DNA of 42,596 nt from Nitratireductor sp. (GTDB lineage: Bacteria; Pseudomonadota; Alphaproteobacteria; Rhizobiales; Rhizobiaceae), in the NCBI GenBank assembly GCA_020441665.1, contig JAGRLT010000024.1:1-42596 (forward strand). Reading direction: 5' to 3'. Position 1 is the first letter of the stretch. Each line of letters opens with the position of its first letter. The translations under genes were made by a program, and so were the position numbers. The notes under the pieces are model-generated. The model was not told the origin of the DNA. It did not search any database and was given only the letters and a program-made list of their open reading frames with translations. This document shows, piece after piece, positions 38,540-42,596 of this stretch.

Positions 38540-38551
38540 GACGCTACCCCC

Positions 38552-38605
38552 CTGAACGCAAAGGGCCCCCTGAACGCAAAGGGCCCCGTGAATACAACAG
38601 GCCTC
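38552..38605. repeat. 18-bp tandem repeat in the marR leader
   Basis: CTGAACGCAAAGGGCCCC occurs perfectly at 38552-38569 and 38570-38587, followed by a diverged third unit (12 of 18 bases) at 38588-38605. On the minus strand it lies just upstream of the marR ribosome site. Confidence 0.88.
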
Positions 38606-42127: not shown

Positions 42128-42182
42128 GTGAAAGCCGACGGGTGAAAGCCGCCGGATGAAAGCGTCGCGTGAAACCGGCGGG
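42128..42182. repeat. Degenerate 14-bp tandem repeat (four units)
   Basis: Units at 42128-42141, 42142-42155, 42156-42168 and 42169-42182 all begin RTGAAA and continue with a GC-rich half; the first two differ at one base (GTGAAAGCCGACGG and GTGAAAGCCGCCGG). It lies between the membrane protein gene and the promoter at 42307. The rest of 42183-42300 is GC-rich and shows nothing I can name. Confidence 0.6.
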
Positions 42183-42306
42183 CGACAGCGGCGGACCGGC
42201 TGATGGGCGATGCGGCGTCGGTCCCTCGGCGGGCGAGCTTTCCTGCCCGGTCTGCGCGGCCGTGTGGGCCAGCCGTTTCGGTGGCGCGGGAACCGATCAA
42301 TCGGGC

Positions 42307-42334
42307 TTGAACCGGCCCATTTTATTTGTATAAG
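42307..42334 (+). promoter_or_regulatory. Sigma70-like promoter facing the tRNA-Ser-like repeats
   Basis: TTGAAC (42307-42312) and TATAAG (42329-42334) with a 16-base AT-rich spacer, one of the best-looking housekeeping promoters in the window. Predicted transcription starts near 42341, about 30 bases before the first repeat. Confidence 0.6.
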
Positions 42335-42347
42335 TGCCGCCGGATCG

Positions 42348-42369
42348 ACAGCCGCTTTCGGCTGTTTTT
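42348..42369 (+). terminator. Terminator-like hairpin between promoter and repeats
   Basis: Seven-bp stem ACAGCCG (42348-42354) with CGGCTGT (42359-42365), CTTT loop, and TTTTT ending at 42369. It sits only a few bases after the predicted transcription start, so it would end the transcript almost at once unless bypassed. Confidence 0.6.
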
Positions 42370-42371
42370 CA

Positions 42372-42425
42372 CGGAGCGGTGGCCCGGTGGTCGAAGGCGC
42401 CCTCCGGCCTGGCGCAAGCCAGGCC
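42372..42425 (+). ncRNA. tRNA-Ser 5'-like fragment fused to a GNRA hairpin, copy 1
   Basis: It reads GGAGCGGTGG, then a D-arm-like GCC-11-GGC (42382-42384 with 42396-42398), as in tRNA-Ser, but no anticodon arm, variable arm or T-arm follows. Instead CGGAG (42372-42376) plus GG (42378-42379) can pair with CCCTCCG (42400-42406), closing the helix right after the D-arm with one bulged base. The hairpin GGCCTGGC-GCAA-GCCAGGCC (42406-42425) follows. Not a functional tRNA; it may be a relic or a structured RNA. Expression is unproven. Confidence 0.45.
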
Positions 42426-42487
42426 TTCCATGTGAAGCGTGGCGTGCGCTTTGCTTCGACCCGTCGGAGAAATCCGGTGCCTGAATA

Positions 42488-42541
42488 CGGAGAGGTGGCC
42501 GAGTGGTCGAAGGCGCCCTCCGGCCTGGCGCAAGCCAGGCC
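42488..42541 (+). ncRNA. tRNA-Ser 5'-like fragment fused to a GNRA hairpin, copy 2
   Basis: It has the same architecture as copy 1. The head GGAGAGGTGGCCGAGTGGTC matches the usual bacterial tRNA-Ser start exactly. The anticodon arm is absent; the alternative closing stem is 42488-42495 with 42516-42522 and the hairpin is 42522-42541. A complete tRNA-Ser could lie just beyond the window edge, but none is present inside it. Confidence 0.45.
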
Positions 42542-42596
42542 TTCCATGTGAAGCGTGGCGTGCGCTTTGCTTCGACCCGTCGGAGAAATCCGGTGC

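Follow-up and report, generated by a model that had tools for sequence, protein, structure and literature searches.

The rtT repeats of the E. coli tyrT locus are tandem repeats of 100-200 bp located downstream, each holding the 3' end of a tRNA; T-box riboswitches precede amino-acid and synthetase genes and read the anticodon and the CCA end of a tRNA in trans; and the 3' ETS of E. coli leuZ is a tRNA spacer-derived sponge that acts in trans on sRNAs. The array described here, best read as a structured pre-tRNA leader that undergoes tandem duplication and is predicted to be able to pair with its own tRNA, shares a trait with each of them. As in rtT, tandem repeats occur in what is here a probable tRNA transcription unit, each with a piece of tRNA, but these units lie upstream and carry the tRNA 5' end plus an antisense to it, whereas those of rtT lie downstream and carry the 3' end. 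As in the T-box, a leader RNA with mutually exclusive folds would recognise a tRNA by base pairing; here, however, the partner comprises the D-arm and the anticodon 5' strand of the adjacent tRNA, and the location is upstream of tRNA-Ser. The 3' ETS of leuZ likewise belongs to a tRNA transcript without being tRNA and is able to base-pair, yet that sponge is trans-acting, lies on the 3' side and has neither a tRNA copy nor an anti-tRNA segment. Template-switch quasi-palindromes also contain an inverted copy of nearby sequence; the array differs from them in its genus-wide retention, invariant core, structured neighbours and tandem duplication. No Rfam family, the T-box model included, reaches its gathering score in the whole window (the complete stretch of 42,596 nucleotides analysed) and nothing relevant appears at E ≤ 1, the best sub-threshold match being an unrelated microRNA model (E 0.099), followed by the sRNA model BjrC68 at 13.2 of 39 bits. 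Searches of an open-access library disclosed no description of such a leader.

The window is an entire contig (C152), and its last 226 bases consist of two copies of a 116-bp unit. Self-comparison of the window and TRF (score 431) delineate copies of 110 nt, 97% identical and spaced by 116, and the head of the second copy equals tRNA nt 1-28; the tandem tRNA-Ser-headed repeat reported in an earlier note on this DNA is therefore real. That note had also proposed extending the sequence past position 42596, and a probable continuation is found on a second contig, C31, the first 35 bases of which are 100% identical to window 42482-42516 and which then runs into a complete tRNA-Ser(GGA). In unit 1, C and then TGAATACGGAGAGG come after the base that corresponds to the last one of the window; because C31 opens with this unit-continuing TGAATACGGAGAGG, C31 most simply follows C152, placing the tRNA directly after the array. 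If the sequence of unit 1 repeats, the tRNA-Ser(GGA) (C31, L002:8-97) would start 1 base beyond hairpin H_D of unit 2. This adjacency is deduced from the overlap, being spanned by no contig, and extra units may be collapsed, so the unit number given here is the two seen. The array of G707 is likewise split, with one part close to the beginning of one contig and another where the tRNA-bearing contig ends (L159, L140); given arrays at contig ends in G707 and in the window, short-read genomes may undercount them. The intact tRNA on another contig, the coincidence of the window end with the contig end, and the antisense segment described below are features beyond the earlier note. On C31, the region 3' of the tRNA-Ser(GGA) (L002:108-235) displays repeated GTACGGCCCGGAGAC-TGGGT motifs, perhaps insertion-sequence remnants.

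Each unit comprises, in order, (i) a decoy, which when complete spans the tRNA from nt 1 to roughly nt 27-30, (ii) hairpin H1, (iii) hairpin H_B with the antisense, and (iv) hairpin H_D, followed by the next head (Table 1). The antisense is a segment complementary to the D-arm and the 5' anticodon-stem strand of its own tRNA-Ser; in the window, GGCGTGCGC-TTTG-CTTCGACC complements GGTCGAAG-GCGCACGCC of tRNA-Ser(GGA), the TTTG insert excepted. H1 is a perfect 8-bp GGCCTGGC-GCAA-GCCAGGCC hairpin in both window copies, in agreement with the earlier note; the hairpin is kept in homologues, but its loops vary and the GNRA loop is not kept. The minihelix that the same note drew between the acceptor 5' strand and CCCTCCG is complementary in the window but, by inspection, is not kept in homologues: G001 has CCCACGG, and G004 and G005 are without the acceptor-strand copy, so it was rejected as a conserved feature. 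Judged by the earlier note's own refuting condition, the lack of conservation of the minihelix and of the GNRA loop weakens this portion of its claim. The units of Thermopetrobacter are without H1.

Table 1. Features of the repeat array and of the sequence preceding it, in window coordinates.
Feature	Position	Strand	Basis
Promoter-like TTGAAC-16-TATAAG, upstream of the array	42307..42334	+	Conservation in the genus
Terminator-like hairpin ACAGCCG-CTTT-CGGCTGT, then TTTT	42348..42369	+	Read from sequence
Repeat unit 1 (116 bp)	42371..42486	+	Self-comparison, TRF
Decoy 1, copy of tRNA-Ser(GGA) nt 1-28, 3/28 mismatches	42373..42400	+	Sequence comparison
Hairpin H1, unit 1, 8 bp, GCAA loop	42406..42425	+	p 0.005 vs 200 shuffles
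Hairpin H_B, unit 1, most of the antisense inside, GTGC loop	42433..42458	+	p 0.03; consensus fold
Antisense, unit 1, GGCGTGCGC-TTTG-CTTCGACC	42441..42461	+	Complementarity; similar segments in relatives
Hairpin H_D, unit 1, CGTCGGA-GAAA-TCCGGTG	42462..42479	+	p 0.205, not significant in this genome
Repeat unit 2, 6 bases lost at contig end	42487..42596	+	Self-comparison, contig search
Decoy 2, exact tRNA-Ser(GGA) nt 1-28	42489..42516	+	Sequence comparison
Hairpin H1, unit 2	42522..42541	+	Sequence as in unit 1
Hairpin H_B, unit 2	42549..42574	+	Sequence as in unit 1
Antisense, unit 2	42557..42577	+	Sequence as in unit 1
Hairpin H_D, unit 2	42578..42595	+	Contig search, tRNA calls on C31

The promoter-like TTGAAC-16-TATAAG preceding the array shows identical hexamers and spacing in G001, G003, G004 and G005, and is diverged in G002; a similar TTGAAC..TATAAG/TATAGT precedes tRNA-Ser(GGA) in some array-free relatives (e.g., L041, L026). 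A strict consensus promoter scan called no promoter at 42307-42334. In G001-G005, the unit or units sit between the promoter-like sequence and tRNA-Ser(GGA). Because this sequence occupies an equivalent position across the genus and related ones precede the tRNA in some array-free relatives, the array is probably located inside the transcribed leader of tRNA-Ser(GGA). The terminator-like hairpin at 42348-42369 was not called by the terminator scan and is, by inspection, absent from other genus members; if it terminates, tRNA expression from the upstream promoter-like sequence would need read-through. The sole terminator-like call of the scan, with 0.7 expected by chance, corresponds to window 42303-42327 (GGGCTTGAACCGGCCC then ATTTTATTTG) and overlaps the promoter-like sequence. 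Upstream of the promoter-like sequence, window 42128-42182 comprises about four imperfect 14-bp tandem repeats (GTGAAAGCCGACGG), within which CCGACGGGTGAAAGC shows 87% complementarity to GCTTCGACCCGTCGG in the units, and an 18-bp sequence is repeated in tandem about three times at 38548-38603. The genes in the 4 kb before the array encode an M17 aminopeptidase, a TPR protein, MsrA and a small protein that matches no Pfam family.

Leaders of this type occur in 6 of the 7 genomes of the window's genus (g1), in three further genera of the family and in one Thermopetrobacter MAG, so that the unit, which by the earlier note would be reduced to a local duplication relic if it existed only in this assembly, is found in other species. 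Within the genus, copies lie upstream of tRNA-Ser(GGA) in G001 (two units, in a one-contig genome), G002, G003, G004 and G005, in addition to the window genome (G000), and no tRNA-Ser(GGA) locus was recovered from G006 (77% complete). The leader sequence of G003 is that of L050, from a MAG labelled Nitratireductor, and the leader sequence of G005 that of L051, from a MAG labelled Phyllobacteriaceae. The pattern GTGGTYKAAGGCG-N25-55-GCGC-N0-6-TYRACC matches 14 of 394 family genomes, including (i) ten tRNA-Ser(GGA) leaders, two of them, in G000 and G707, with the tRNA on a separate contig, and (ii) four in which ARAGORN finds no tRNA in the locus, counted as chance. Follow-up by genus revealed the leader in all five g99 genomes examined, decayed in G669, and in the one g95 genome examined (1/1). 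In g82 the leader is intact in one of seven genomes examined (G660, with two antisense copies), decayed in G760 and reduced to remnants in G087 and G552, with no element seen in G609, G733 or G698.

Beyond the family, a stricter pattern applied to the genome collection (one genome per species, 84,980 species) returned four loci: two genus members, the Thermopetrobacter HyVt-550 MAG, with two units, and the Hyphomonadaceae locus L049, not counted as an element on account of its short antisense and missing decoy. Thermopetrobacter is the lone match among 60 genomes (itself and 59 relatives). A class sample gave matches in 9 of 376 genomes, the eight besides G000 having no tRNA in the fetched locus, and the strict order-wide pattern matched none of 397, G000, the sole genus member drawn, being unmatched by necessity because the contig breaks at the array. 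The distribution is sporadic, and either arm can decay: the antisense in G760, G669 and the Ser(CGA) leader of G005, the decoy in G002, G004 and G005.

Where it is kept, the antisense follows the variant of its own tRNA. GGTCGAA in the antisense accompanies TTCGACC in the tRNA in g1, g82 and Thermopetrobacter; GGTTGAA accompanies TTCAACC in g99, except in G669; and GGTTTAA accompanies TTAACC in g95. Such a complementary leader segment, tracking the tRNA's own variant, is what a cis-acting, tRNA-controlling leader would display. Within the genus, CACGCTT goes with AAGCGTG in G002 and G003, and CACGCC with GGCGTG in G001, G004 and G005, but this change also improves H_B and is thus not independent evidence for pairing with the tRNA. 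The alignment of eight units (genus g1 and G660) discloses GCGTGCGCTT as ten consecutive invariant columns, with zero invariant columns in the H1 part, and GCGTGCGCC is invariant across five units of g99. A duplex-energy swap gave a weak outcome: the own tRNA outscores every one of the 32 others in 1 of 18 leaders, and in 18 of 18 it is at least at the median of the other tRNAs; the strongest z among 134 loci belongs to an ordinary leader, L093.

A version of separate sequence precedes a second gene, tRNA-Ser(CGA), in four genus genomes (G000, G001, G004 and G005). Among the 39 tRNA genes of G001, only Ser(GGA) and Ser(CGA) carry an upstream head copy plus an antisense above shuffles; the antisense scores above shuffles at tRNA-Pro and tRNA-Arg of this genome belong to a divergent neighbouring gene pair (L189). 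At Ser(CGA), the antisense reads GTTCGACCACTC against GAGTGGTCGAAC in the tRNA. The arrangement comprises (i) in G001, units of 115 bp with four copies of the antisense and three of the decoy, the first unit being headless; (ii) one decoy unit and a headless first unit in G004, a layout shared by G005, where the antisense is mutated (GTTCTACCACTC); and (iii) a single headless unit with GTTCGGCCACTC, leaving one G-U pair, in G000. Because the 5'-most unit is headless in all four genomes, the layouts suggest that, at Ser(CGA), the antisense came first and the decoys arose through tandem duplication. A pattern for the Ser(CGA) unit matched 1 of 194 family genomes, G001, in a sample that held G000 and G003 but not G004 or G005. 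In G005 (L220), the head of the Ser(CGA) tRNA looks broken and the upstream decoy head nearly intact, reflecting a MAG sequencing error or a pseudogene.

The hairpins were compared with 200 shuffles each, in segments picked by hand. H1, the sequences of which are unrelated between genera, outperforms the shuffles in 14 of 17 scored units (p ≤ 0.01), falling short in G669 and in the Ser(CGA) units of G004 and G000. The level of p ≤ 0.05 is reached by H_B in 9 of 17 units and by H_D in 6 of 18. In the RNAalifold consensus A2 (genus units and G660), GGTCGA:TCGACC of decoy and antisense is nested around H_B, and in the g99 alignment (A1) the full decoy:antisense helix is preferred. Two-sided pair changes are scarce: A1 has one and A2 has four, of which two are located in H_B and two in a poorly aligned helix.

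Equilibrium folding, which disregards transcription order and tRNA modification, predicts competition between leader and tRNA. When 75 nt of leader are included, the acceptor stem has a mean probability of at most 0.1 in 14 of 17 element loci versus 25 of 106 ordinary family tRNA-Ser(GGA) loci (Fisher p 5e-6), a comparison that is indicative, since loci from related species are not independent, and in which Ser(CGA) accounts for three of the 17 element loci and all controls are Ser(GGA). The tRNA is not collapsed in L052 (0.98), L149 (0.66) and L150 (0.38). This run covered 17 of the 18 element loci, L011 being omitted because its antisense pattern was not matched in the last 75 nt; removed from the controls were (i) L032, L037, L044, L114 and L123 and (ii) loci with no GGA tRNA call, short upstream DNA or a poor tRNA-alone fold, with L020 retained despite a possible degenerate decoy. 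For 9 of the 17 loci, not one of 15 shuffled antisense cores lowered the acceptor-stem probability as far; shuffling lowers it nearly as much in g99 and L219 (means 0.05-0.21). With 240-nt leaders, the controls drop too (median 0.11) and the decoy gives no rescue of the predicted tRNA fold; element loci such as L044 and L114, excluded at 75 nt, were kept among the controls of this run.

A possible class of leaders carrying the antisense alone was also tried, with a looser pattern that matched 22 of 394 family genomes versus two control matches. It adds seven tRNA-Ser loci (G103, G569, G676, G021, G532, G727 and G118) with antisense scores of 16-20, near background, and four further loci without a tRNA gene (G709, G069, G637 and G752). 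Antisense scores of at least 18 occur in 7 of 106 ordinary leaders, compared with two for the reversed and none for the complemented query, an excess with p 0.11 versus the reversed query, 0.001 versus shuffled leaders and 0.001 versus the tRNA 3' half; these figures offer a weak hint at most of an antisense-only class beyond the known elements. The decoy-free leaders L255 (G727) and L247 (G569), with scores near background, contain CTTCAACC beside g99-like sequence and are possibly ancestral or decayed.

The most likely function of the leader may be that of a cis-acting brake on tRNA-Ser maturation, a reading that we hold tentatively and at somewhat less than an even chance. The antisense would have three possible partners: (a) the upstream decoy, (b) itself, as a local hairpin, and (c) the nascent downstream tRNA. 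Pairing (c) would block cloverleaf folding of the precursor, hence its maturation by RNase P, while pairings (a) and (b) would release the precursor; tandem duplication would provide decoys that soak up the antisense, and the array, co-transcribed with the tRNA, would alter the tRNA level, with some signal presumably setting the balance. The proposal draws on what can be read from sequence, namely the parts of the unit, its position and recurrence, the antisense matching its own tRNA variant and the competition predicted at equilibrium. The invariant antisense core beside drifting but paired hairpins, together with the distinct Ser(CGA) instance, points to base pairing to the tRNA, or to its copy, as the target of selection. 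The earlier note had anticipated a structured RNA derived from tRNA-Ser, and sequence and predicted structure support that view, the unit lying upstream of tRNA-Ser in other species with its hairpins kept while sequence turns over. A decoy for tRNA-processing enzymes, which the note proposed as well, is conceivable, but the obvious partner of the tRNA copy lies within the same leader, in the segment complementary to the tRNA.

The main rival explanation, which we doubt but take seriously, is that the units are mutational relics. Template switching at the tRNA gene would leave an inverted 5' copy in the leader, and hairpin-promoted unequal exchange would duplicate it; the units would be tolerated, unselected and decaying, with gene conversion from the tRNA keeping the likeness for a time. 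Template switching yields a sense-antisense-sense order, which is the order observed, and this order, the sporadic distribution and the decay of the arms point to a template-switch origin and leave room for a neutral reading. The lineages are scattered, with Thermopetrobacter alone among its 60 genomes; the inverted copy of adjacent sequence is missing in close relatives, those of Thermopetrobacter as well as G609 and G733 in g82, as for a quasi-palindrome; the number of Ser(CGA) decoys varies (0, 1, 3); and decayed copies exist. A relic of this kind accounts poorly, however, for an antisense core that is invariant across the genus where the neighbouring hairpin is wholly replaced, or for the antisense insert of 3-4 nt (TTT, TTTG, TTTT, TTCT), which persists though gene conversion from the tRNA would erase it; H1, and H_B in about half of the units, remain paired despite differing sequences, and the leader is found on two tRNA genes of one genus. 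The two histories can be compatible, the leader being born by template switching and retained in some genera.

It is improbable, in our judgement, that the leader serves as a small-RNA source, freed by RNase P as a stable sRNA in which the GCGUGCGC-bearing H_B would capture 5' tRNA-Ser fragments or other RNAs in trans. The presence of up to three hairpins per unit, the GTGC loop and the precedent of a tRNA-linked spacer sponge in E. coli, the 3' ETS of leuZ, would suit such a role, but each antisense matches its own cis gene and no Rfam model matches at gathering score. Still less credence is due to a mobile-element scar or att site at tRNA-Ser, or to an inserted palindromic repeat family. tRNA genes are common integration targets, and direct repeats of a tRNA end do flank an insert here; the repeated part is nevertheless the tRNA 5' end, not the 3' end repeated at att sites, no integrase occurs among the four genes upstream of the array, and no match was found in 72,556 plasmid and 50,697 phage records at E 1e-5. 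A dispersed repeat of the REP or MITE type is contradicted by G001, in which all matches to the window array are at tRNA-Ser genes, and by G000, in which matches outside tRNA-Ser genes number two, short and weak; the same results speak against the palindromic element entering a tRNA gene that the earlier note had envisaged. That the window is a whole contig with the repeat as its last 226 bases raises the thought of an assembly artefact, to which we give next to no weight, since the same structure is present within G001, assembled as one contig, and in the interior of other species' contigs, which refutes it as regards the structure.

Promoter strength and processing are usually regarded as what sets the output of bacterial tRNA genes. 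A bolder form of the maturation brake, which we regard as rather unlikely on the present comparisons, is that these are self-restraining tRNA genes, in which an anti-tRNA segment and competing decoys would form a protein-free attenuator, the unit number tuning the share of transcripts that fold as tRNA-Ser and the copy number evolving by slippage. If true, a leader complementary to its own tRNA, occurring at two serine tRNA genes and in several genera, would place one tRNA species under control by RNA alone, and the unit numbers found in nature form a series in which dose can be tested. If the units are template-switch relics instead, they would provide a clear natural record of tRNA genes generating inverted duplications.
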